Shown here piece after piece: positions 8,219 to 31,918 of a DNA stretch of 32,213 nt; the stretch's first letter is position 1; every line of letters starts with the position of its first letter. The notes under the pieces were generated by a model. The model was not told the DNA's origin and made no database searches. It saw nothing but the letters and a program-made list of their open reading frames with translations. Location of the stretch: contig JABDJY010000398.1 in the NCBI GenBank assembly GCA_013003285.1, forward strand, positions 1-32,213, in the 5' to 3' direction. Position numbers and translations under genes: made by a program. The DNA is from Alphaproteobacteria bacterium (lineage in GTDB: Bacteria > Pseudomonadota > Alphaproteobacteria > UBA6615).

Positions 8219-9703
8219 ATGGCTAGTAACGCTTTCCTCAATCCGGTCATCAGGAACTGCTCGCAATGCTTGGTTCATGTGCCCGATCTGGCGGTTTACG
8301 GATCGAAGCCGCGGCGCGAAATTCTAAAGGATTCCAAGATCGAACGACGTTTGGTGGCGTCGCTGCGGGCGTTCGATCATGCCGTCGGTTATGCGCCGAA
8401 CCAGACCTATATTGGTAATCTCACGCCCGATCAGTTGGCCGCGATCCCGCGGCCCTGGTACGTCGCGGATGAAGGGGTAAATACCAGCCCACCGCATGTT
8501 GGCCCCTTCGGCGAAATCGTTTCGCAGGACTTGTTCTACGCAATCCTCGAGCGCGCCAACGTACTGACCCCGGCGCTGGTGGAGCTGACCGCGGAGAGCC
8601 ATGAGAAACTGAACGCCAAATTGCGCGGCCATCCAGTGCTTGCCGGCCTGGCCGGCGGCGATGTGGGATCGTCGATGTCGATCGAGGCGGAAATTGAGGC
8701 AGAAACGGCTCTACCGCTGCGCACCGGCGGAAAACTGCGCGGCGGCGTGCGCCGGGATAACCGCAGCGAAGGCCGTGAAGACGCCAATCTCGATGCCGCG
8801 ACACTGCTGGAAGGGCTTTGCGTCAAGGCGTCGGGCACAATCGCGCTGCAGTGGCTGCTGCACCGCGAGGGTATAGGCCCGGAAGAGATCGATTATGTGA
8901 TCAGCTGCGGCGAGGAGGCAGCGGGCGATCGCTATCAACGCGGCGCCGGTGGAATAGCCAAAAGCATCGGTGAGATGTGCGGCTGCGTCAACGCCTCTGG
9001 CATGGATGTGAAGAACTTCTGCGCGGGTCCCGCATCAGCGCTGGTCACGGCCGGCGCGTTGGTGAAGGCTGGCTTGTACCGAAACGTGGCGGTGGTCGCG
9101 GGCGGATCGCTGGCCAAACTCGGCATGAAATTCGAAGCCTTCCTCGAACGCGGCATGCCGGTCCTCGACGATTGCCTGGGCGCGACGGCCTTTCTGGTCA
9201 CCGCCGATGACGGCGTGAGCCCGGTACTCCGCCTGGAGCCGGGTGCGGTGGGGTTGGCGCGCATCGGTGCCAGTACGTCCGACCAAGCGGTCTACCGGGA
9301 ACTTATTCTCAAACCTCTCGAGGCGCTGGGCTTGAGAATGTCCGATGTGGATAAATACGCACCCGAACTTCATAATCCTGAGATCATGGAGCATTCCGGC
9401 TCCGGCGACGTCGTTCACAAGAACTACCGGATCATCGCGGCCCTGGCCGTCATGGACGATCAAATAACCAAAGCGGAGATGCCGTCGTTTATCGAGCGTA
9501 TCGGTATGGTCGGCTTTGCGCCGACCCAAGGCCATATCCCCTCGGCGGTGCCCTATATGGGGCATGCGCTCGAAGCGATGCGACGGGGCGAATTGCGACG
9601 CGCAATGTTTCTATGCAAGGCTAGCCTCTTCCTGAACCGCCTGACGGAACTTTATGATGGCGTGTCTTTCATGCTCGAATCGAACTCTAAATTGAAGTCT
9701 TAG
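8219..9703 (+). CDS. grdC: Glycine/sarcosine/betaine reductase component C beta subunit
   Basis: CLVHVPDLAVYG...APNQTYIGNLTPDQLAAIPRPWY and CVNASGMDVKNFCAGPASALVTAGALVKAG...GGSLAKLGMKFE are GrdC-typical. Confidence 0.93.
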   Translation: MASNAFLNPVIRNCSQCLVHVPDLAVYGSKPRREILKDSKIERRLVASLRAFDHAVGYAPNQTYIGNLTPDQLAAIPRPWYVADEGVNTSPPHVGPFGEIVSQDLFYAILERANVLTPALVELTAESHEKLNAKLRGHPVLAGLAGGDVGSSMSIEAEIEAETALPLRTGGKLRGGVRRDNRSEGREDANLDAATLLEGLCVKASGTIALQWLLHREGIGPEEIDYVISCGEEAAGDRYQRGAGGIAKSIGEMCGCVNASGMDVKNFCAGPASALVTAGALVKAGLYRNVAVVAGGSLAKLGMKFEAFLERGMPVLDDCLGATAFLVTADDGVSPVLRLEPGAVGLARIGASTSDQAVYRELILKPLEALGLRMSDVDKYAPELHNPEIMEHSGSGDVVHKNYRIIAALAVMDDQITKAEMPSFIERIGMVGFAPTQGHIPSAVPYMGHALEAMRRGELRRAMFLCKASLFLNRLTELYDGVSFMLESNSKLKS

Positions 9704-13337: not shown

Positions 13338-14699
13338 TCAATCTGACGATATTGGCTCGTCGAAGACATGCTGGTCGGAAATATCGGTCCCCAGCGCGGC
13401 GAGCGCCTGTTCGACCAAGCGGCGGCGAATCGCTTTTTCCTCATCCGGCGATTTATCGGGATCGCCCAGGGGATGGGGAATGGCGATGCTTGGAATGATG
13501 CGGTTGGCGCCAACGGTTTTAGAGATCGGCACGATCGAGCAGATATGCGCGGTGGGCAGTCCCACCCGTTCCAGTTCCTTGACGATCGTTGCCCCGCAAC
13601 GCGTGCAGGTGCCTCATGTGGAGGTCAGGATAACCGCCTGGACACCTACATTCACCAACTCGGCCGCGATGTTCTGGCCATAACGCTGTGCCCGCTCCAC
13701 CGATGTCGCATTGCCGACGGTGGCGTAATAGGTTTCGCTGAGTTTTCCGATACGCCCCTCGCGTTCCAGATCGCGCATAACATCGAGCGGCAACACCCGG
13801 TTCGGATCCTCGTTGGCATAGGTGGGGTCGTAGCCGCCGTGGACGGATTGGTGGGTCTCCCCGCTTAACCGGTCCAATCCCTGAAGCGAATAGGCGCCAA
13901 ACTTGCTGGCATTTGCGGATTCGATGCGGTCCGGGTTTCCCCTTGGCACGATCCCGCCCGAGGTCACCAGGGCCAGGGTCGCCTGCGCCATATTCTTCAC
14001 CGCGGGTGCGGGTGGCACGCGGCCGAATACCGGCATGGCATACTCGGTCTCCGGCGTAGCGCCGCTGACTTTACGCAACAGCATATCAATCGCCCGTTGG
14101 GCGCCCGGTGCGTCGGCGAAATAGTTCTGGCGCAGGCCGTGTGAAATGGTGTTGTCTTCGGTGGGCACGATTGCCGCGCCCGCGACGAGCTTAAGCCCAA
14201 CACGCGCCATATTGGTCGCTGCGTCGCGCATCCCCATGACATCCGAACTGGCCCGCACGATTGTCACTGGCCGGCGATAGATCTCGACCGCCGGATTTTC
14301 TTCATGCAATGCGGTTGCGGCGTGAATTCCCAGCCGCGCCTGTACGGCCTGACACACAGCTGCGCAGGCCATACCGTAGCGCCCGGCGTTGAAGGCCGGG
14401 CCGGCCAACAGCAATTTGGGTTTGAAATCAGCCGCAACCGTGCGCTTCGCTTCGATGAGGCCGACAATCTCCGCGACCGCGGCATCCAGGTTCTCGGCCA
14501 TATAGTTATCGCCGGCGACGATAGTGCCGATGATTTCGATGTCCGGTGCCATGCCGGCAATCAGTTGCCCCGGCCCCTTCGGCCCATCGTACCACTGGGG
14601 TGCGACTCCGGCTTGATCCTCGCCGCCCAGGCCGCCGAAGAATTGGTTCACATAGTGAATAGTCTGGATCTTTTCGGGCACGGTCACGCCTCTCGACAA
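13338..14699 (-). CDS. grdB: Glycine/sarcosine/betaine reductase component B selenoprotein (GrdB/GrdF/GrdH family), Sec at in-frame UGA 13614-13616
   Basis: Two ORFs (13614-14699 and 13338-13565) lie in one frame and join through TGA as VQAVILTST-U-GTCTRCGATIVKELERVGLPTAHICSIVPISKTVGANRIIPSIAIPHPLGDP; IHYVNQFFGGLGGEDQAG N-terminus; TTG start at 14699 tentative. Confidence 0.95.
13587..13601 (-). promoter_or_regulatory. Candidate bacterial SECIS apical hairpin for grdB
   Basis: On the minus strand CGTTGC-GGG-GCAACG, perfect 6-bp stem beginning 12 nt after the UGA. Confidence 0.65.
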
Positions 14700-15931
14700 C
14701 TCAGGTGGCTATAGCCGAGCTGATTGGTCGCCCCGATAATGGCCTGTAGTTCGACTTCCATGCTGCCGTCGTCGCGCAGGCTGTGCGGATAGCCGCCGGC
14801 GAGCCGCGACACGTCGGGTAATGGTCCGATCGTAGTTGCCATGGCCGGCAGCTCGACTCGCTCGTTGGCATTTCCCGTCGACACCAGGGCGTCGGCCTCG
14901 GGCGTAGTGTCGGCAAGGGACTGGGAAGCGCCATCGCTACCAGCGAATTCGTCGGTTATCGCAACCGTCTTGATGCCCGCCTGTTCCAAATCGCGCACGA
15001 TCATCATCAAATCAGCATCGGGATTGCCGAAGCCTTCTTTACTGATGATGACGCCACTCGATTTCATCTGGATAATTTTTTCGACCGCGGCTGCGGCCGA
15101 GAGCTGCTTTTCGGCAAGGCGCGTGGGTTCGTTGGTAATGACAACACCGGTAAAATTCCAGCGCGTCCCGTGGCCGCTCAGCAACTCGGCGATGACGGGA
15201 TTATTCTGATGGTGGAAGGTGGTGTTCTTGTCGCAGGCGCTCACGCAGTTTCCTGATAAGACACCATTGTCGAGCACGATGCGGGGATCGACGCTGATCG
15301 GTAGGCCTTCCTGTGCATTTCGTCCCAGCACGTAGGTGTCGTGCAGCAAGCCTTGGCTGAGAACAATGTAGACATAGCCTATGCGCGGCAGGCTCGGGGC
15401 ACATGGCACTTCGTCCCACAGCACCTCTTCGGTTTGGTCTGGTACGGAATCCAAACAACTTTGGGCGACAAATTTCGCCGCACGGGTTCCGGCTTCCCGT
15501 AACGCTTCTTCATGCGCGTGGGGGTCCAGGGGTTCGTGAACATCGATTTCCAGGACAATCAGGGGCAACCGGGAAAACGGCGTATAGGCCGCGCCGGGCC
15601 CAGACATATCGATGATGCCTTCCTGAAAGCCGACGATGGGGCCACAGGTTGCGATGGCGACATTCTCCAGGACACAGAGCACGCCTGTTCCCGGCTCCGT
15701 GCCGACCGCTTTCGCGCGCGGTTGGACGACGTCCTTGACGCACAAGATACGCGTGGCTTCGCCGGGCAACGCCAACCTGACGCGGATACGCGCCAAACGA
15801 TGGTCTTGTTCCTGCAATGTGCGCGCCAACGCCGCCGCGTCGAGAGACAAGCAGCCCTGATTGATGCCGGTCTGTTCGCCCAGCTTGACCTGGTTAACAA
15901 TATGCTTGTGCAAGGTTAGGGTCATTTCCAT
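14684..15931 (-). CDS. grdE: Glycine/sarcosine/betaine reductase component B alpha/gamma proprotein (GrdE/GrdG/GrdI family), Asn-Cys autoprocessing site
   Basis: LSGNCVSACDKNTTFHHQNNPVI around predicted cleavage at N228-C229; GVVITNEPTRLAEKQLSAAAAVEKIIQMKSSGVIISKEGFGNPDADLM. Confidence 0.93.
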   Translation of the reverse strand: MEMTLTLHKHIVNQVKLGEQTGINQGCLSLDAAALARTLQEQDHRLARIRVRLALPGEATRILCVKDVVQPRAKAVGTEPGTGVLCVLENVAIATCGPIVGFQEGIIDMSGPGAAYTPFSRLPLIVLEIDVHEPLDPHAHEEALREAGTRAAKFVAQSCLDSVPDQTEEVLWDEVPCAPSLPRIGYVYIVLSQGLLHDTYVLGRNAQEGLPISVDPRIVLDNGVLSGNCVSACDKNTTFHHQNNPVIAELLSGHGTRWNFTGVVITNEPTRLAEKQLSAAAAVEKIIQMKSSGVIISKEGFGNPDADLMMIVRDLEQAGIKTVAITDEFAGSDGASQSLADTTPEADALVSTGNANERVELPAMATTIGPLPDVSRLAGGYPHSLRDDGSMEVELQAIIGATNQLGYSHLSCREA

Positions 15932-21610: not shown

Positions 21611-22852
21611 CTATTCGAACCATTCGGCAGGCAGCACGGTCCCTTCGTCCGCCGGCTCATCTTTCGACGCTTGTTCAGTTGGGTCATCGGGTTGAGCCTG
21701 TTCAAAACCCGGAATGCCGACATGGCGGCCCGCCAGTTGCGGACCGCGGGCGAACACCGGGATCTCAATGAACGCGGATTGGGTGAGCGCGTCACGATAG
21801 GCGGCCAAAGCTGCGCGCGACGAATCCAAGCGCATGCGAGACCGCGATCCGTCGCCATTTTCCCAATTGCTGTGCCAATAAGACATTGCCTTGATGCGGG
21901 GATAGCGTCCGCTGCTCAGATCGGTCAGTGCGTCGCGCAGCCATTGGGGTTTGCCCGCATGCTCAACAACGCCGAATTCCAATAATGCGATTGGCTTGCG
22001 GCTCGAGATCGCTGCAAGCTCGGGATAGACATCGTCCATCACCTGGCGGAAACGAGGATTCCAGGACTTCAGCTCTCTCGGTGTCTGTGCGGCATAGACC
22101 GAGACACCGATCCAGTCGATATAATCATCGCCAGGATAGTAAGCCGAATAGGCGTTCCAACTTTCATTATGAGGCGCGCCGTAGCCGTTGACGTGAAACA
22201 CCCAGGTGACGTTGTGCACGTCTTCGGCGCGGAAAATGTCGATGATGTGGCGATAGGCGTCGCGAAAGCGTTCCGGACCATCGGCCAGCGTGGGCGAACC
22301 ATAGGCGGTGCTGGTTGAGCCGCCATTGCAGACGCCGCTCCACGGAAACCAGTTCCCATTAACTTCGGTACCAAATTCAATCATTACCGGTCCGCGCACC
22401 TCTCCCGCCGTTCGGGCGTAAGTGCGAAATTGATCGTCGAACTTACCCGAGAGGATATTTTCCATCCGGTACTTCTTGTCGGCACAGCCTTCCTTCCAAT
22501 TGCTGCGCGACATCAGGCGAATGAAGGGGACGACGCCTTCCTCGAGCAATGTCTCCACTTTGTTTTTTGGAAACCGGATACCGCGGAACCAATTATCTGA
22601 AAAATAACCCCAGACAATCTTGCGGCCGTTCAACTTGTCTGAGAAGCGCCTGATCCGCTGCTTCGTGACGATGGACTCTTCCGGGCCAAAGTCGGGAAAC
22701 GCCGCGTGGTAGATACCGGTTGGCGGTGGCGCCAGCTTAATCGGAGGCATATCACTTTGGGCGCTACCAGCGCTCGCCAGGGAGATAACCGTCGCAGCAA
22801 ACGTCGTTTTGACGAGTAGTTTGATCATCGACCTTTCCACTATATTAGACAA
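21611..22852 (-). CDS. Secreted GH26-like (beta-mannanase-type) glycoside hydrolase
   Basis: Signal peptide; GIYHAAFPDFG, VPFIRLMSRSNW, GPVMIEFGTEVNGNWFPWSGVCN, NVTWVFHVNGYG, YIDWIGVSVY, KPIALLEFGVVE. Confidence 0.8.
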   Translation of the reverse strand: MSNIVERSMIKLLVKTTFAATVISLASAGSAQSDMPPIKLAPPPTGIYHAAFPDFGPEESIVTKQRIRRFSDKLNGRKIVWGYFSDNWFRGIRFPKNKVETLLEEGVVPFIRLMSRSNWKEGCADKKYRMENILSGKFDDQFRTYARTAGEVRGPVMIEFGTEVNGNWFPWSGVCNGGSTSTAYGSPTLADGPERFRDAYRHIIDIFRAEDVHNVTWVFHVNGYGAPHNESWNAYSAYYPGDDYIDWIGVSVYAAQTPRELKSWNPRFRQVMDDVYPELAAISSRKPIALLEFGVVEHAGKPQWLRDALTDLSSGRYPRIKAMSYWHSNWENGDGSRSRMRLDSSRAALAAYRDALTQSAFIEIPVFARGPQLAGRHVGIPGFEQAQPDDPTEQASKDEPADEGTVLPAEWFE

Positions 22853-23029: not shown

Positions 23030-24199
23030 CTATCTGCTGAATTGTTCACAATTTGTTAATAGTGGTGTTTTACCGGTTAAAAACCTCTCCAATGCCGTGA
23101 CAATTCGGGTCGCGGCTTGGCCGTCGCCGAAGGGATTGTCGATCCCCTGCATTCCGGCGCGCAAAGCAGGATCGTCCAACCAGCGGCTGGCAATTGAATA
23201 AACGTCTTGGCGATCGGTGCCGACGAGAACGGCCAGACCGTCGCGCACTGCTTCCGGGCGTTCGGTGACGTCACGCAGAACCAGCACCGGCACGTGATAG
23301 CTTGGCGCTTCCTCCTGAATACCCCCGGAATCCGTTAGGATGAGATGCGCCGTGCGAATGAGACTGTGACAGGCGGCGTAATCCAAGGGTTCGGTCAGGG
23401 TTATCCGCGGCTGGTCCCGCAGGATAGGTTCAACAGTTTCGCGAACCCGCGGATTAACATGGAGCGGCAAGACCACGTGAATGTCGTCAAACCGCTCCAC
23501 GATATCGCGCAACGCGCGACACATCCCGTCTAACTTCGTTCCCCAGGATTCGCGGCGATGAAGGGTGACAAAGACCAATCTCTGCCCGTTCGGTATGACC
23601 GGGACATTCGCCGGCGCGCACGGCGCCGCCAACTTATCGACCAAGGCCAAAGCGTCGATCGCCGTATTGCCGGTCACAAAGATCGTGTCCTCTCGGCACC
23701 CCTCGGCCACGAGGTTCGCAGCGGCACCGGGCGTTGGCGCAAACCGCAGGCTAGCCATGTCATCGATCATCCGGCGGTAGGCTTCTTCGGGAAACGGATC
23801 GCGATTGTCGCCGCTGCGCAATCCAGCTTCCACATGCGCGACCGGCAGATGTTGGTGGAATGCGGCAAAGGCTCCGGCGAAGGCACTCACAGTATCGCCT
23901 TGAACAATCGCCAAGGCCGGATCGATCGCCTCGCATAACGCCGTAATGCCGCGAACAACCTTCTCGTTGAGATTCAGCAATGCCCCCCCTGCCCCGGCGT
24001 TGAGGCAATGATCGGGCTTGATGGCGAATCTTGCGAGCGTCTCTCGCTCCAACTCCTCATGTTGCCCTGTCGAGACCCAGCAAACGCGTGCCCCGCCAAG
24101 GCGGTTTCGGGCTTCGAGATATACCGGCGCCAGCTTGATGACTTCTGGTCGCGTACCGGCAACGACAAGGATGGGTCCGCTATATGGCTGTTTTTTCAT
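23030..24199 (-). CDS. wecB: UDP-N-acetylglucosamine 2-epimerase (non-hydrolysing)
   Basis: GTRPEVIKLAPV, VQGDTVSAFAGAFAAF, VAHVEAGLRSGDNRDPFPEEAYRRMID, LTDSGGIQEEAPSYHVPVLVLRDVTERPEA. Confidence 0.95.
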   Translation of the reverse strand: MKKQPYSGPILVVAGTRPEVIKLAPVYLEARNRLGGARVCWVSTGQHEELERETLARFAIKPDHCLNAGAGGALLNLNEKVVRGITALCEAIDPALAIVQGDTVSAFAGAFAAFHQHLPVAHVEAGLRSGDNRDPFPEEAYRRMIDDMASLRFAPTPGAAANLVAEGCREDTIFVTGNTAIDALALVDKLAAPCAPANVPVIPNGQRLVFVTLHRRESWGTKLDGMCRALRDIVERFDDIHVVLPLHVNPRVRETVEPILRDQPRITLTEPLDYAACHSLIRTAHLILTDSGGIQEEAPSYHVPVLVLRDVTERPEAVRDGLAVLVGTDRQDVYSIASRWLDDPALRAGMQGIDNPFGDGQAATRIVTALERFLTGKTPLLTNCEQFSR

Positions 24200-24228: not shown

Positions 24229-24242
24229 TTGATCAAGATCAC
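24229..24242. promoter_or_regulatory. Weak FNR-like box TTGATCAAGATCAC
   Basis: TTGAT-N4-ATCAC, one mismatch to TTGAT-N4-ATCAA; divergent wecB/MBL intergenic region. Confidence 0.3.
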
Positions 24243-24369
24243 TGCCTTGCGTCCCCTGGTATGCGATTCTTTGTTTAGGATAAGTTGTTGCGCGTGGATC
24301 TGGTTGGCGTCTTTTTCCAAAATGGTTGCGACAAAGCGCCAAACAGCTGGCACTGGAGTTGGTTCTCGA

Positions 24370-25395
24370 ATGAAGTTGTCCCCCCAAGAACGGGCCCAAT
24401 TCGCGCTCGAACGCGACGATTACCGCGATCTGATACGGTATATTCGCAGTCCGCGGCAAGAGCCGGCGCAAAATACCCTCGACCTGACTTGTATTGGCAA
24501 TACCGGCGGTGCCCACAATGTGGTGCATGGCAGGCCCGCCGGCGGGATGTTGTTGCGCACCGCTGGCCGGACCATCATCATCGATCCCGGCGACAATTCT
24601 ATCGCCTACATGACCTCGCTTGGTCTGAACCCCTACAGCATCACCGATGTGGCGGCCTCCCATGCCCATAATGATCACGTAGGCGATCTGTCCTTAGCGA
24701 TCTCGGCAGCGCTAACCCTGGGCCTTAAAGACGAGAGCGAGAGCGACAGCCACTTTCTTGTTAGCCCATCGTTGGTTGATTATGGCTCACCGAACGCGAC
24801 CAAACTCGGCTTCACGGTTCCTGCATATGCTTGGAAGGGTCGGGTCCATGCCCTGTGCTCGCGAGACATGGAAATCTTGCGCTTCGACGGTGCTTCTATC
24901 GCCTCGACCCAACAAGTCCGTATTGTCGACTCGCTAAGCGTCACTGCGGCGCCGGCGCACCATGGCCAGGTGCAGGTAACCGGCTTCGTGTTTGACACGC
25001 CGATTGGCCGCCTTGGTTACACCGGCGACACCGAATATTTTCCCGAGCTCGCTGCCGCCTACCAAGGCGCGGACGTGTTGTGGATGAACATGAACACGCT
25101 GGCGTTAGACGCGATCGACGACACGAGGCCAACTTGCCCGAAAACTGCGGCGCCGGTGCACTACCACCTAGGCTATGTCGGCGTGTGCAATTTGATCGAG
25201 GCGGTCCGCCCCACCACGGCGTTCGTTTCTCACCTCGGCGCGCAGCTTTTACCCCAGCGCGAAGCCATCCAGGCGCTGCTGCGCAACCGGTTCGCCGACA
25301 CCGGTATTACCATCTATTGCCCCGACAACGGCGATCGATACAGTTTCGTCTCTACTCTGTCCCGGCCGCCGTCGGTCGGCAGGTTCGTACCATGA
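24370..25395 (+). CDS. Metallo-beta-lactamase-fold hydrolase
   Basis: ASHAHNDHVGDLS (HxHxDH), GYTGDTEYFPEL; ATG at 24370 preferred over TTG at 24229. Confidence 0.8.
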   Translation: MKLSPQERAQFALERDDYRDLIRYIRSPRQEPAQNTLDLTCIGNTGGAHNVVHGRPAGGMLLRTAGRTIIIDPGDNSIAYMTSLGLNPYSITDVAASHAHNDHVGDLSLAISAALTLGLKDESESDSHFLVSPSLVDYGSPNATKLGFTVPAYAWKGRVHALCSRDMEILRFDGASIASTQQVRIVDSLSVTAAPAHHGQVQVTGFVFDTPIGRLGYTGDTEYFPELAAAYQGADVLWMNMNTLALDAIDDTRPTCPKTAAPVHYHLGYVGVCNLIEAVRPTTAFVSHLGAQLLPQREAIQALLRNRFADTGITIYCPDNGDRYSFVSTLSRPPSVGRFVP

Positions 25396-26150
25396 CCGCC
25401 GAAGTCGGAATACCAGCGATCATCCTGGCGGGCGGCCTGGGGACGCGGCTGCGCAGCGTCACCAACGATAAATTTCCCAAGCCGATGGCGCCGATTCCTC
25501 TTAGAGGAAAATCTCACCCCTTTCTGGAATTTCCATTGGCCCATCTGAAAGCCGAGGGCTTCACAGACATCATAATTTGCATTGGACATCTGGGAGACCA
25601 AATTCGCCGGCATTTCGGCGACGGCCGCCAATTTGGGTTGACGATCCGCTACGACGATGCCGGCGACGCCGATACCGCGCGGCGAATTTGGGGCGCGACC
25701 CAACTGCTTGGCGCGCCAAAATATCTGGTGGTTTGCGGTGACGTCTTCCATCCTTTCGGGCTCGGCGAATTTATTGAGGACTTCTGTCGGCATCCGCAGT
25801 GGCTGATGCAACTGGCCGTCGTTCCTACTGCGGGCGACATTTCCGCCAATCTTGCGCTCGGCCCTGGCTGCGAAATTACCGACTACGATGCACGCGGCGT
25901 TCAGGGCGAATATGTCGGCATCGAGGCGGGCACGCTAACGTTCCGCGATACGATCTTCGAAGGTGATCCCGTCGCCGCTGATCTATCGCTAACCGCCAAT
26001 ATCTATCCCAGCTTGATTGCTCAAAGGGCGCTGGGTGGCAAACTTGTGACGCAGCCGTTTTTTGATATCGGCACGCCCGAAAGCTACAACCGTTTCTGCC
26101 AATACGCCGGTGCCGGTCATGCCCAACCGGTCTCTTGGGGGACGCAATGA
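25392..26150 (+). CDS. Sugar-phosphate nucleotidyltransferase (HddC/RmlA-like)
   Basis: AIILAGGLGTRLRSVTNDKFPKPMAPI, YLVVCGDVF; ATGA overlap with the upstream gene. Confidence 0.9.
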   Translation: MTAEVGIPAIILAGGLGTRLRSVTNDKFPKPMAPIPLRGKSHPFLEFPLAHLKAEGFTDIIICIGHLGDQIRRHFGDGRQFGLTIRYDDAGDADTARRIWGATQLLGAPKYLVVCGDVFHPFGLGEFIEDFCRHPQWLMQLAVVPTAGDISANLALGPGCEITDYDARGVQGEYVGIEAGTLTFRDTIFEGDPVAADLSLTANIYPSLIAQRALGGKLVTQPFFDIGTPESYNRFCQYAGAGHAQPVSWGTQ

Positions 26151-27823
26151 GATATCTTGGCGGATTGGCTCGCTTAATTCTTGCTGTGGTCTGGGTCTGG
26201 GTGCCTGTTGCAGCCTACGCCCAGACAATCCAAACAACCCAGTTGACGGCACCCAGCGGGCAAAACAATCGATTGCTGATTGTCGCGCCGGCATCGTCGC
26301 TGGCGCAGGCCCATTTTCTATCCAAAGAAATTTTTGCCGACTACGCCTTCGATATCCGGATTATCGATAGTGCCAAATACGCCCCTCTGATCGACGAGAT
26401 CGCGCACGATGCGTTCGTCTATTTCGGCTCGGATTCAGGTGTTCCGCCGACGCAGGGGTTTTTGGACGACATCGCCCGCACCAAAAAGCCGGTTTTATGG
26501 ATCAAACAACATATCTGGTTGCTCGGCGAAGACCTTTTGCAGCGGCGGGGTCTAAACGTTTTGCGACCGCAAAACACGCAGGCCGAAGCGGCCAACAGTA
26601 TTCGAGTAAAGGTAAAAGACCCGGCCCGAATCTTAAACTGGCTGTTCGACGAAAACGGCCGCGCGGTTCAGCCGACCACTGTTGTCGCTGGAAACTTGAC
26701 TTATCTGTCCTTCAATCCCCAGTCCGACAGCGCCGGAACGGCCGCGGCACCACTGCTCTCTACCGCGCTGCACGCGGCTTTCGGCGATCCAGCGAACATA
26801 TTACCCATGCCAGTGTCGAGCTTTGAGGACAGAGTCCGCAAGGCCCGTGACGACGATTTTGCAGGCGGGGTCCATCTGCCGATCTATATTTCCGAAACGA
26901 GCGAGAAATTCGTCGGCTACGATTCCGATCGTTTGCACAAAAATCTGCTGCGGATAAAAAATTCCGGCGCCGAATGGGTCACAATCCAACGCGTTTATTA
27001 CCAGGAAGGCATCAACGCCAGTCAGATCGCTAAAGATCCGGCGCGCACCGCAACGCTAGCATCGCTCGAGAATATCGTTGCCGACGCCCACAAGATCGGA
27101 CTGATGGTCCGCCTTATTCCGGTCGTAAATCTAACCGAAGCCAGCCGCAAACCCGACCAATGGCGCGGCATGATCCAACCTTCGAATCCGGATCAATGGT
27201 GGATGCAATACCGCGCAATTTTGCTCGAAGCTGCCGCCTTCGCTCGGGAGAACGAGGTCGAATCGCTTGCCATCGGCGCCGAATTGGTTGCTCTGCTGGA
27301 CGAAGACGACCGCTGGCTCTCGCTGGTGGCTGATGTGCGGCACGAAGCCAATTATCGCGGACTTTTGAGCTACCAGATCAATTTCAATGCGTTGGAACAA
27401 ATCGGCTGGGCCCATGCCCTGGACTATCTTTCAATTGCCGCTTATTGGCCGCTCGCCGAAGACCGGGACGCTGACCTCGAGACCCTGATGGAGACTTGGC
27501 GCGGAATCGGCGCAGAGCTTGCTGATTGGCGCAGCCGCAATCCCGGCACAAAGCTCGAATTCGGTGAAATCGGCTATGTCAGCCAACCTTACACCAGCGT
27601 CTTTCCCTTTTCGTGGAAGCCACACAAAGATCAGAAACGTCACCTGTCCGAGCAGTTTACTGCCTATCTCGCGCTGGAGAAATTTCTCGCAGAACATACC
27701 CAGATCGCCGGCGTCAGTTTTTTCGCATCGACGCGAGAAGATACAGACCCCGAAAGCATTGGCTACACACCCTTCGGCAAACCTGCCAGCGAGGTGATGG
27801 AGCGGATCCTCAAGTCGCGATGA
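26147..27823 (+). CDS. Exported protein with an N-terminal Rossmann-like module and a GH113-like TIM-barrel domain
   Basis: Signal peptide; VRLIPVVNLTEASRKPDQWRG, SLAIGAELVALLDEDDRW, LDYLSIAAYWPL, KLEFGEIGYVSQPYTSVFPFSW; ATGA overlap. Confidence 0.75.
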   Translation: MRYLGGLARLILAVVWVWVPVAAYAQTIQTTQLTAPSGQNNRLLIVAPASSLAQAHFLSKEIFADYAFDIRIIDSAKYAPLIDEIAHDAFVYFGSDSGVPPTQGFLDDIARTKKPVLWIKQHIWLLGEDLLQRRGLNVLRPQNTQAEAANSIRVKVKDPARILNWLFDENGRAVQPTTVVAGNLTYLSFNPQSDSAGTAAAPLLSTALHAAFGDPANILPMPVSSFEDRVRKARDDDFAGGVHLPIYISETSEKFVGYDSDRLHKNLLRIKNSGAEWVTIQRVYYQEGINASQIAKDPARTATLASLENIVADAHKIGLMVRLIPVVNLTEASRKPDQWRGMIQPSNPDQWWMQYRAILLEAAAFARENEVESLAIGAELVALLDEDDRWLSLVADVRHEANYRGLLSYQINFNALEQIGWAHALDYLSIAAYWPLAEDRDADLETLMETWRGIGAELADWRSRNPGTKLEFGEIGYVSQPYTSVFPFSWKPHKDQKRHLSEQFTAYLALEKFLAEHTQIAGVSFFASTREDTDPESIGYTPFGKPASEVMERILKSR

Positions 27824-27854
27824 CATAGGCATTAGCGAGGTCTAACCGGAATCG

Positions 27855-30233
27855 ATGGATTACCCTTTGCTATTCTACGGCGCTGCCGCCGCGTTATTTG
27901 CCTACTCATGCTTGAGCATGGCCGCGCGCGCTTATCAATTCGTCGCGTTTCCACGCACCTTCGGCCGCACCACCAATATATCGCTGCGAAACCTTGTCGA
28001 GCTTTCTGATGAAAAAAGCGCCGAATTGCCCAGCTTCAAAATCGTCGTTCCGGCCTATCAAGAGTCGTTGGTAATCGAAGCCACGCTGCGCCGCCTCGCG
28101 GCACTCAACTATCCGCGCAGCCATCTGGAAATTTACGTTGTGACCTATGAAGACGAGCCGAAATCGGCTGGTACGGCGACGACAAGCGATATCGTTCGGC
28201 AAGTCGCGTCACAGCTCAATACCGAAACGGGACGTAGATTCATCAAGTCGCTACACGTACCGCTTGGTTTCGAAGGTTATTTCCCCGGCCGTTTGGATGC
28301 CGACCATCGCCATATTGGTAAAGCGCGCGGCCTCAACTTCGCGTTGCGCGCCATTCACGAAGAAAACGAGCGCGACGAACGCGCCTATTTCATCGCCGCC
28401 ATGCGCGCGGCGGGCTATTTGGCGCGCGTGGATAGCGCGATCGAGGCGCTCATTACAAACATGTCCGATCCCGGCGCATTCGACGCGACGACACGACGTT
28501 ATTTCGATCCCAAAAGCGATGAGTATGTCGGACCAGCGACCTTGAGCTCGCAACTCTATCGGGTTCGCGACCTGGAACAGAAGGCAGCGCAACAAGGGAC
28601 TGACATTGCCCAGTCCGCCCAAATCTTACGCGACTATGTTCAAGGCGAAGCGGCCCGGTTCTTTCTTCAGGCCCCGCGCGAAGACGCGCCAACCGCCGAA
28701 TGGCGCATCATTCCGAAGCGGGAGTTTCTTCATCGAATCATGGGTGAGGTTGAGGCGGAGTCGACAACCGTTCTCGCCGAGCGCTATAGCGCTCGAAACC
28801 TGGAACTCGCACAGGACCGACCAACATTGTTCAGTTCGCTCCAAGGGGTTGAAGATGGTGAGGCGCTGTACCAATGCACGCGGCAGCTAAATTCGCGCTG
28901 GTTAGCCATCTACGACGCCGACACCGATGCACCGCCCGACCTCTGCCGACACCTGGCCGCCCGCATCCTGACAGATCCATCCGCAATGGGCTTCCAAGGC
29001 CCGGTTGCCGCTGTCGGAAATTTTGCGGAGGTGCATCCCCTGTGCAGACCCGCCAGTCTGTGGATGGCGTTTTGTCATGCTACGAGCTATCCCCGGCTGC
29101 TCAGTAAACCGAGTTGGGCCCACCCACTCGCCGGTACAAACTTGTGCTTTCGCCTCGATGGATTTGAGCGCAACGGCCAAGTGGTGCGCACCCCACCCTA
29201 TGACGAAATTCAACGGCGTTTCATTCTGAGTTTCGATCCAGAACAACTTACCGAGGATCTCGAGGCGGGCATCCGTATGTTTAGCGACTGCCACGTCAAC
29301 GCGGACTGGCATCCCTATCTCGAAATCGAACAAGCCCCGCCGACACCTCGGGCTCTTATTGCGCAGTGGACAAGGTGGACGCAGGGAACGTTGCAGACCC
29401 TCGGTTATGTCCTACGTAGCCGCCTGCCGCGCACGCAAAAAGCCAAGCTCGCTTTGCTGCCGTTCGAGGTCATGGCCAGCGGTGTGGGCCCGGTAATCAC
29501 CATCTCATTATGGGCAGTTATCTTATTGGGCGAACTTACCACGCATCCCCAATTACTGCCGCTCACGCTGTTACTGACTTTCGCAAACTTGTTTTACGTG
29601 CTGCCGTTTCTGGTCGCGTACAATCGCTTCCGCCCTCTCACGCTGCGCGCGAACGCCGTCGAGACGTTGCGCGCCCAAGCACCACTCGTTCTAAACGAAC
29701 TCTCAAACCGAGCAAAGGATCGGCCAATTAGTGCCCAAGAGCATGAGCTGGTGCGAATGATCGCGGAACGGCTGGCACACGGTCTCAAGAAAGGCGGCTT
29801 CCTCTCTCGCTATCTCAGCTCACGCTGCATCGAAGACGACGACCGGCGACCGGCGATTGCAGGCGAAGTCGCGGCGCGGCTTGCTAACCTGGAAGAATGC
29901 ACACCCGCTGCGCTGCGGCGCGGCGAATTGGTGGCGTTGGCGACCGCGTTCCAGAATTCAGTAGCCGAAACCCCACAGGCTCGGACACCCGGCACGTGCC
30001 AAGCTTCACTGTTAGCCGATCGTTTGGCAACACTCGACCTCGCTCTGGCCCACGGCGCCGGCGAAGGTGCGCAGCGCAGGCGCGAACGCGTATCCTTGTG
30101 TCTTTGGGCCCTTCCCTTCCTGCTGTTTCAGTTGATTCCCTATTACAAGGGGCTGGTTCGCTGGATCGTTGGAAGTCGCCAACGCCACTGGGAAAAAACA
30201 CCCCGTACCCACAAAGGTGCCACATGGCTGTAA
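27855..30233 (+). CDS. Processive GT2 family glycosyltransferase, membrane-embedded (polysaccharide synthase-like)
   Basis: FKIVVPAYQESLVIEATLRRL, IYDADTDAPPD (DxD), IAQWTRWTQGTLQTL (QxxRW), TM segments before and after. Confidence 0.88.
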   Translation: MDYPLLFYGAAAALFAYSCLSMAARAYQFVAFPRTFGRTTNISLRNLVELSDEKSAELPSFKIVVPAYQESLVIEATLRRLAALNYPRSHLEIYVVTYEDEPKSAGTATTSDIVRQVASQLNTETGRRFIKSLHVPLGFEGYFPGRLDADHRHIGKARGLNFALRAIHEENERDERAYFIAAMRAAGYLARVDSAIEALITNMSDPGAFDATTRRYFDPKSDEYVGPATLSSQLYRVRDLEQKAAQQGTDIAQSAQILRDYVQGEAARFFLQAPREDAPTAEWRIIPKREFLHRIMGEVEAESTTVLAERYSARNLELAQDRPTLFSSLQGVEDGEALYQCTRQLNSRWLAIYDADTDAPPDLCRHLAARILTDPSAMGFQGPVAAVGNFAEVHPLCRPASLWMAFCHATSYPRLLSKPSWAHPLAGTNLCFRLDGFERNGQVVRTPPYDEIQRRFILSFDPEQLTEDLEAGIRMFSDCHVNADWHPYLEIEQAPPTPRALIAQWTRWTQGTLQTLGYVLRSRLPRTQKAKLALLPFEVMASGVGPVITISLWAVILLGELTTHPQLLPLTLLLTFANLFYVLPFLVAYNRFRPLTLRANAVETLRAQAPLVLNELSNRAKDRPISAQEHELVRMIAERLAHGLKKGGFLSRYLSSRCIEDDDRRPAIAGEVAARLANLEECTPAALRRGELVALATAFQNSVAETPQARTPGTCQASLLADRLATLDLALAHGAGEGAQRRRERVSLCLWALPFLLFQLIPYYKGLVRWIVGSRQRHWEKTPRTHKGATWL

Positions 30234-31918
30234 ACCAATTCAAATCCGTGACGAGAGGCAACCCAACCTACGAACCAAATAATCGTAGCCCACGGGATGA
30301 CGCATCGCTGGAGACACGATTGGCAGTCGCCAAGTCGCACTGGCACCGTACAGTTGGCGAGCGCGTGCTGCGACTTATCGGATTGTTGGTGGGCCTGGTG
30401 GTGCTGTTGTTGGCAATTACCTTGGCGTCGCAAGAAGTGCCTGCAGCATCGACCGATACAATAAGGATAAGACCGTTACCGACGGCACATGAAGCCTCAT
30501 GCGCGATCGCCCCGCTTCCCGCGACCGCCGACCGGTTGTTGCTTGTCGTCGCTGATAACAACGAAAGCGTTTTCCCCCAGATTGTAGCGCTTGAAGAAGC
30601 CTTGAGTTCCTACTTTAACTTGCGAGTTCAGAGAGTGGCTGCTGCCGATTATCAGCCGGCCCTTTTGGAGAACGTTCGGGCAAGCGTGGTTTATGCCAAT
30701 GCAGTATTCAAAGATGACGAACGCATCGGCGAATTGGTTAACGATACCTGGCGCCACGAGCTGCCGGTGCTTTGGCTGGGGCCCGGCGCTTATGTGGCGG
30801 AAGCAGAGCTTGATATCGTGCTCAAGACAGACCCCAGCGCGTTTGAATCGGCGCCGAAAGGCACTATCGTCGAATATAACGGGGTTTCGATCTCGGCAAC
30901 CGGGTTTTTACTTGGCGAAACCATCAGCGAGTCGACGGGGTCACCCGCCCGCGCGGTCGCAACGGTGCGGTTGCCTAACGGCACAGCCATGCCAGCAATC
31001 ACGGTCAGAGACGATTTCGTCCACGTTAGCTTCGACCCGTTAGACCCTGACCTGCCGCCCAACCTGGCGCTAGCTGTGGTTATCGACGCTTTCGCAGAAG
31101 TGTTGGGCTCGCCCACCCCCGACCCTCGCGTGCTTTTTCGCCTCGAAGACCTGAACGGCCACGACTACGGAGAGACCGATACCTCGTTCGCGAAAACCGC
31201 CAACTATCTGCTGTCCGAGAACGTATTCCTGCACTTGGCCATCATCCCAGAATGGGTCGACGCGCAAGGAAACGTCCAGGAAAATATAGGATCCGCGCGG
31301 AAGATTCTCGACTTGATCAAGGCCTATCCGGAGTCGGTCAGTCTCATTCAGCACGGTTACCAACACTTCCGGCCGGAGGCGCGCAACACGGGTCTGCGCT
31401 CCGGCCAAGCGTTCGAGTTTTTTCTCGATGATGACCGCACATTGGGCATCGAAAAAGCGCAAGAGTTGCTCCGGCAACGGTTGGCGGCGGGAAGCGACCT
31501 AATAGAGCGTTATGCTTGGCGGCCGCATATTTTCGAGGCCCCCCACTACCTCATGTCGCCGAGCCAACAGGCACTCGCTGAAGAACTCTATCCGGTCATT
31601 CATCACCAGCCTTTATTCTACGCCAGCAAATCCAGTCAATTTCTGCTGCCCTGGTACACCAAGCGCAGCGCTGTGGTTTATGCCCCCAGCTCCGCCGGTT
31701 TTGTCGATGTTCTAAAACCTAACAGCGTTTCGAAAATCCTGCGTGTGCTGGAACAAGGCGCGCGTATTCTACCCGATCCTGTTTTCGTGGTTTTTTTCCA
31801 TCCTTTTGTGACGGAGTATGTCGGCCGGGAGACAGACCTGGAGAAATTGATCTCCGGGATCAAAGAACTCGGCTATCGCTTCGCCAACACGTGCGAGGAT
31901 ATTTCGCGGCCTCGCTAA
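30224..31918 (+). CDS. DUF2334 polysaccharide deacetylase-like protein with an N-terminal Rossmann-like module
   Basis: ATG at 30224 overlapping the GT2 end; N-terminal TM; VLFRLEDLNGHDYGETD, LIQHGYQHFRPEARNTGLRSGQAFEF, FEAPHYLMSPSQQALAEEL. Confidence 0.8.
   Translation: MAVNQFKSVTRGNPTYEPNNRSPRDDASLETRLAVAKSHWHRTVGERVLRLIGLLVGLVVLLLAITLASQEVPAASTDTIRIRPLPTAHEASCAIAPLPATADRLLLVVADNNESVFPQIVALEEALSSYFNLRVQRVAAADYQPALLENVRASVVYANAVFKDDERIGELVNDTWRHELPVLWLGPGAYVAEAELDIVLKTDPSAFESAPKGTIVEYNGVSISATGFLLGETISESTGSPARAVATVRLPNGTAMPAITVRDDFVHVSFDPLDPDLPPNLALAVVIDAFAEVLGSPTPDPRVLFRLEDLNGHDYGETDTSFAKTANYLLSENVFLHLAIIPEWVDAQGNVQENIGSARKILDLIKAYPESVSLIQHGYQHFRPEARNTGLRSGQAFEFFLDDDRTLGIEKAQELLRQRLAAGSDLIERYAWRPHIFEAPHYLMSPSQQALAEELYPVIHHQPLFYASKSSQFLLPWYTKRSAVVYAPSSAGFVDVLKPNSVSKILRVLEQGARILPDPVFVVFFHPFVTEYVGRETDLEKLISGIKELGYRFANTCEDISRPR

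Follow-up and report, generated by a model that had tools for sequence, protein, structure and literature searches.

An N-terminal GATase1/ThuA-like module common to a GH113 hydrolase and a DUF2334 de-N-acetylase of a putative synthase-dependent polysaccharide locus

A GH113 protein (protein A) and a DUF2334 protein (protein B), encoded on either side of a GT2 synthase gene in an alphaproteobacterial contig, have in common an N-terminal module of about 180-200 amino acids. This module is the N-terminal domain of DUF2334 de-N-acetylases, a GATase1/ThuA-like alpha/beta/alpha domain that lacks annotation and is covered by no Pfam family. The two proteins are probably the hydrolase and the de-N-acetylase of a synthase-dependent locus, located in the periplasm or anchored in the membrane, and their common, non-catalytic domain would hold the same amino-polysaccharide. 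That A and B share an N-terminal module had been claimed in a first-pass annotation of this DNA, and the claim is confirmed by direct BLASTP comparison, by z-scores, by DUF2334 profiles and by the predicted fold.

Organization of the locus

The window analyzed here is the whole contig (32,213 nucleotides) from a fragmented assembly (506 contigs), and it ends about 300 bases past the gene for protein B. Its GC content is even (55-64%), so that there is no sign of a misjoined contig; the contig may be mis-binned. The genes and domains of the locus are as follows.

21611-22852, minus strand: GH26-like protein adjoining wecB (PF02156, 6.4e-9, above cut-off)
23030-24199, minus strand: WecB, UDP-GlcNAc 2-epimerase, a source of UDP-ManNAc (TIGR00236, 9.6e-118, above cut-off)
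24229-25395, plus strand: metallo-beta-lactamase-fold protein (PF12706, 7.1e-14)
25434-26150, plus strand: sugar-1-phosphate nucleotidyltransferase, directly upstream of A (PF00483, 3.1e-10)
26147-27823, plus strand: protein A, with signal peptide, N-terminal module and GH113 domain (open reading frame; Pfam GH113, 1.6e-29)
26918-27712, plus strand: GH113 catalytic domain of A (PF22612, 103.7 bits, cut-off 27)
27855-30233, plus strand: GT2 synthase (PF13632, 5.7e-14)
30224-31918, plus strand: protein B, with membrane anchor, module and DUF2334 de-N-acetylase domain (open reading frame; PF10096, 8.1e-24)
30371-30421, plus strand: predicted membrane-anchor segment of B, the hydrophobic run LRLIGLLVGLVVLLLAITL, called by eye in the translation
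31130-31855, plus strand: DUF2334 deacetylase domain of B (PF10096, 84.8 bits, cut-off 26)

The metallo-beta-lactamase-fold gene, whose true start is probably further downstream, opens the plus-strand run, and wecB is divergent from the operon. The best NCBIfam match of the nucleotidyltransferase is MurU, below its cut-off. The ATG of A overlaps the stop codon of the nucleotidyltransferase gene (ATGA), and the start of B and the stop of the GT2 gene overlap by 10 bases. Protein A begins with a putative signal peptide, RLILAVVWVWVPVAAYAQ, called by eye, and keeps the Glu at both catalytic positions (GAEL and FGEIG), each invariant in a five-sequence GH113 alignment; its GH113 domain is thus a putative hydrolase of the endo-beta-mannanase family with retained active-site residues. 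In B, the motifs RLED, HGYQH and FFHP occupy E/D, HxxxH and His columns that are invariant among 38 sequences, and they correspond to an Asp-His-His metal site and a catalytic His. The earlier description of a putative hydrolase and a putative deacetylase flanking the GT2 is therefore borne out by the PF22612 and PF10096 matches and by the kept motifs. The GT2 itself has the DxD, TED and QxxRW motifs, with a large insert at about residues 139-335. A scan of genome contigs found no relatives of it, and neither the other sequences of 289 genomes (at E 1e-20 or better) nor plasmids gave a match. Few true relatives of B were found in a search of the class, from which one match (L004) was set aside, being located in a LysR-type region.

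Elsewhere in the window, genes for glycine/sarcosine/betaine reductase component B lie at 13350-15931 on the minus strand, with a PF09338 protein (14684-15931, minus strand) in the pair. The frame of the GrdB selenoprotein (PF07355, 8.7e-137) continues across an in-frame TGA (motif TSTUGTCTRCG), immediately followed by an Rfam SECIS_4 element at 13576-13613. A protein with DUF5940 and a ketoacyl synthase III-like part (8219-9703, plus strand) is possibly a subunit of glycine reductase component C. Selenoenzymes such as GrdB are best known from anaerobic Gram-positives; the present contig belongs to the Alphaproteobacteria.

Sequence evidence for the common module

The two copies of the module are located as follows.

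26267-26788, plus strand: shared module in A, GATase1/ThuA-like alpha/beta/alpha and free of Cys (hhalign, AlphaFold2, Foldseek, Cys count)
30530-31108, plus strand: shared module in B, a divergent copy free of Cys (A-B BLASTP, z-scores, AlphaFold2 strand and helix order)

The segments on which the first-pass annotation had based its claim are present in both open frames, from NRLLIV at 26267 to HAAFG ending at 26785 in A and from DRLLLV at 30530 to AEVLG ending at 31108 in B. The interval 30528-31110 originally given for B is out of frame, with stops when read from 30528, whereas the frame from 30218 is open. Direct BLASTP of A against B gave E=0.009 over 178 collinear columns, which contain every one of the quoted pairs of segments apart from the final helix. 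This direct similarity is weak, yet above chance. The local alignment has z=5.7 against shuffled sequences, with its score reached by 1 of 1000 shuffles, and the global alignment has z=4.9, reached by none of 1000. With either protein as the query, none of 1340 real protein chunks of 204 amino acids reached the A-B score.

DUF2334 proteins of other bacteria provide a second line of evidence. The N-terminus of A matches seven DUF2334 N-termini in BLASTP (E from 1e-5 to 0.017) at a constant position. When a profile of seven DUF2334 N-termini, with A and B left out, was run against six frames of 399 genomes, the sole match was A (E=1e-4). A 42-sequence profile, likewise made without A and B, gave 96% with A in hhalign (P=1.4e-9), the best of 100 shuffles reaching 1.9%. 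When 7280 open reading frames of the window and of related loci were searched with it, A was also its only significant match outside DUF2334 proteins. Membership of A in the module family is settled by this route, because a profile of intermediate DUF2334 N-termini finds A, and chance similarity between A and B is rejected by the same profile matches together with the shuffle and real-chunk scores.

The B module is more divergent. It went undetected by the 42-sequence profile that finds A (hhalign 0.7%). B nevertheless aligns collinearly and in full length with one DUF2334 protein (E=1.8e-13), the alignment beginning inside the module at residue 129. The B module has z=6.2 with one DUF2334 module, most others sampled giving about 0 on local alignment, and B shares invariant columns with the DUF2334 family in an alignment of 38 sequences. 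Membership of B in the family follows from its similarity to A, the full-length alignment, the z of 6.2, the invariant columns and the predicted fold. The failure of the profile on B, together with the commonness of GATase- and flavodoxin-like folds, could mean that A and B resemble each other merely by a common alpha/beta pattern without common descent. Such a coincidence is disfavoured and we consider it very improbable, for it would leave the specific and sole recovery of A from 399 genomes, and an A-B score above that of every real protein chunk, to accident.

Predicted fold of the module

AlphaFold2 models were built with alignments from window and fetched-locus sequences only. The model of the A module has a mean pLDDT of 83.8 and a pTM of 0.83 and that of B a mean pLDDT of 72.4 and a pTM of 0.76, both partly inheriting the family fold because DUF2334 sequences dominate the alignments. 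Both modules are predicted to run strand-helix-strand-short helix-strand-helix-strand; after a variable stretch come several strands and a closing helix. The two folds were compared through this order and through Foldseek matches. Missing profile matches and different folds had been named in the first-pass annotation as grounds for abandoning its claim; instead, A is matched by profile and the predicted order of strands and helices is equal in the two modules.

Foldseek pairs the A module with glutamine amidotransferases of the PabA type and with ThuA-like proteins. The best PDB match of the B model is human NDST1, in its N-terminal domain and deacetylase (513 columns, E=5.4e-12), with a TM-score over the whole model of just 0.40; PabA, HisH and ThuA-like structures are matched as well. 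In a viral fold search, B gave deacetylase-type matches and no clear full-length relative. The fold raised the candidate of a class I glutamine amidotransferase. This was rejected, since neither window module contains a Cys and the Cys-His-Glu triad of these enzymes is therefore absent; DUF2334 modules in general have no fixed Cys either (at most 16 of 38 in any one column). The models, the Foldseek matches and the Cys count thus agree with what characterizes CBM87 and CBM114, a GATase1-like alpha/beta/alpha fold devoid of the GATase catalytic residues. The link to these two families is by fold only, because profile searches of PDB sequences found no relative and Agd3, PelA and PelADA are not named among the best 50 Foldseek matches of the A module and the B model.

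The module in DUF2334 loci and the link to WecB and Nfr

A DUF2334 scan of public genome contigs found 457 relatives, from which 80 loci were kept. In every one of the 80, the DUF2334 protein carries the module, and the idea that the module is a peculiarity of the present hydrolase/deacetylase pair is therefore rejected; DUF2334 proteins normally have it as their N-terminal domain. In the same loci, which are mostly from Burkholderiales so that the counts are not independent, wecB is present in 43, an NfrB-like GT2 in 53, an NfrA-like gene in 52, and wecB together with NfrB in 40. NfrB with WecB is the proposed maker of a ManNAc polymer, the receptor glycan of phage N4 (PMC8669469, PMC8669472). 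Since wecB and an NfrB-like synthase lie beside DUF2334-module genes, the glycan of these loci is suggested to be of the ManNAc type.

Six loci (L016, L035, L043, L052, L070 and L087) hold DUF2334-module genes within full Nfr-type sets composed of wecB, an NfrB-like GT2, an NfrA-like TPR protein and a DUF4434 gene, and their DUF2334 protein is a candidate for an undescribed de-N-acetylase of NGR-type glycans. Tandem triplicate DUF2334-module genes adjoin wecB and NfrB-like genes in two further loci (L013, 6507-14677; L027, 7057-12444). A deacetylase goes unmentioned in the phylogenetic section of PMC8669469, and among the papers searched none joins NfrA, NfrB and 'polysaccharide deacetylase', nor DUF2334 and 'polysaccharide'.

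The window also has WecB linked to a processive GT2, as in the Nfr/NGR system (wecB; DxD, TED and QxxRW). Its GT2 is no orthologue of NfrB (BLASTP E=0.046 to an NfrB-like protein) and gave no MshEN match, and an NfrA-like query found no NfrA-type exporter up to the contig end about 300 bases after B. On a Streptomyces plasmid, the GH113 gene most similar to A (33% identity, module lacking) stands side by side in one locus with wecB, a GT2 and a DUF2334 gene that bears the module, which ties GH113, DUF2334 and wecB together independently.

Fusion of the module to GH113 and relation of the copies

The unusual element is the fusion of the module to GH113. The first-pass annotation had proposed a search for other proteins with the module; DUF2334 proteins carry it throughout, whereas it was absent from all of the roughly 30 other GH113 proteins examined, drawn from 299 phylum genomes, plasmids and class relatives, the N-terminus being covered partly for a few very long ones. 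A tblastn search of plasmids with A gave no match extending into the module, and a survey of 24 genomes of the order showed the fusion in this genome only. A module on a GH113 cutting enzyme, in the operon of its usual DUF2334 host, thus appears to be new, and it may exist elsewhere, because the DUF2334 scan was not designed for GH113 fusions in other phyla.

In two loci of the same class (L009, 1486-2550; L010, 1246-2277), GH113 genes lie beside bcsB-like cellulose synthase genes, bcsB being called by eye. This suggests a role for GH113 enzymes in further kinds of synthase locus as well, and GH113 alone therefore does not imply a mannose-type chain.

The A module is nearer to ordinary DUF2334 modules than to the B module, and so the A copy is not a recent duplicate of that of B. 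In A, a His stands in place of the Asn that is conserved in the DUF2334 'NxW' motif, and most family-conserved residues of the C-terminal half are absent, so that its binding site may differ. Both the closeness to ordinary DUF2334 modules and the lost residues would also suit an origin of A as a DUF2334 protein whose deacetylase was swapped for GH113, leaving the module as a functionless structural remnant. We regard this as improbable, given that the core of the module (Y82, Y96, D112, W122 and W128) is well kept and that the A model is confident.

Proposed function of the module

Three fold relatives bear on function. First, the N-terminal domain of Agd3 has a GATase1/ThuA-like fold and is assigned to CBM87, and its glycan binding has been measured (PMC7229062). 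Second, the N-terminal domain of Bacillus cereus PelADA, CBM114, has measured binding to GalNAc oligomers (PMC13254593). In both enzymes this domain binds the polymer that undergoes deacetylation (PMC7229062, PMC13254593). Third, the N-terminal domain of NDST1 is described as Rossmann-like and is likened to the CBM of Agd3 (PMC10864358). Glycan binding is most likely the role of the module, because the fold relatives Agd3 and PelADA bind glycan and B follows the PelADA layout; the earlier suggestion of a glycan-binding module is in this respect well supported by analogy with CBM87 and CBM114.

The N-terminal domain of NDST1 is also part of a homodimer interface (PMC10864358), and contact with PelB has been suggested for the alpha/beta domain of PelA (PMC12022489). 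These cases, and the position of the A and B genes on both sides of the GT2, allow the module to be mainly a domain for protein-protein docking or dimerization that unites hydrolase, deacetylase and synthase. This is rather unlikely, as glycan binding has been measured directly in the two best-studied fold relatives and the module normally resides on a deacetylase alone. A common periplasmic complex of A and B, as the first-pass annotation implied, is possible.

With the module as a glycan-binding domain, we infer ManNAc as the likely sugar and the following order of action. WecB would supply UDP-ManNAc, and the GT2 would polymerize and extrude the chain. From its anchor in the inner membrane, B would catch the emerging chain by its module and strip acetyl groups, and A, soluble after export by its signal peptide, would engage the same chain by its own copy and trim it with GH113. 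Tentatively, then, one glycan-binding domain so far known on de-N-acetylases may have come into use on a glycoside hydrolase too, with both enzymes recognizing a single chain, probably built on ManNAc. On the same tentative reading, DUF2334 proteins in general would be a de-N-acetylase partner, so far undescribed, of machines of the Nfr/NGR type. The results offer a likely role for a domain that has no Pfam family. They also link DUF2334, a large uncharacterized family, to polysaccharide de-N-acetylation in loci resembling the system for the receptor glycan of phage N4, and the hydrolase/deacetylase pair with its common domain makes the substrate question testable on two small proteins.

Comparison with known systems

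The catalytic domain of A is that of GH113 endo-beta-1,4-mannanases (PDB 4CD6, 5YLH and 7DVZ), to which A adds a module absent from the other GH113 proteins examined. Like the Nfr/NGR system (NfrB, NfrA, WecB and YbcH), the window combines wecB with a processive GT2, and DUF2334-module genes are often part of Nfr-type loci; it differs in its non-orthologous GT2 without an MshEN match and in having no NfrA gene before the contig end. Human NDST1, which the complete B model matches best in fold, has an added sulfotransferase domain and acts on heparan sulfate. PelADA (transmembrane anchor, CBM114 and CE26) shows the same order as B, namely membrane anchor, alpha/beta/alpha domain and deacetylase, and Agd3 (CBM87 and CE18) likewise places an alpha/beta/alpha domain before the deacetylase domain; however, neither has detectable sequence similarity to the window proteins, and the sugar predicted here is ManNAc rather than GalNAc. 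As for DUF2334 (PF10096) proteins themselves, B has their architecture with a strongly diverged copy of the module, and A carries a homologue of their N-terminal domain with GH113 in place of the deacetylase domain.
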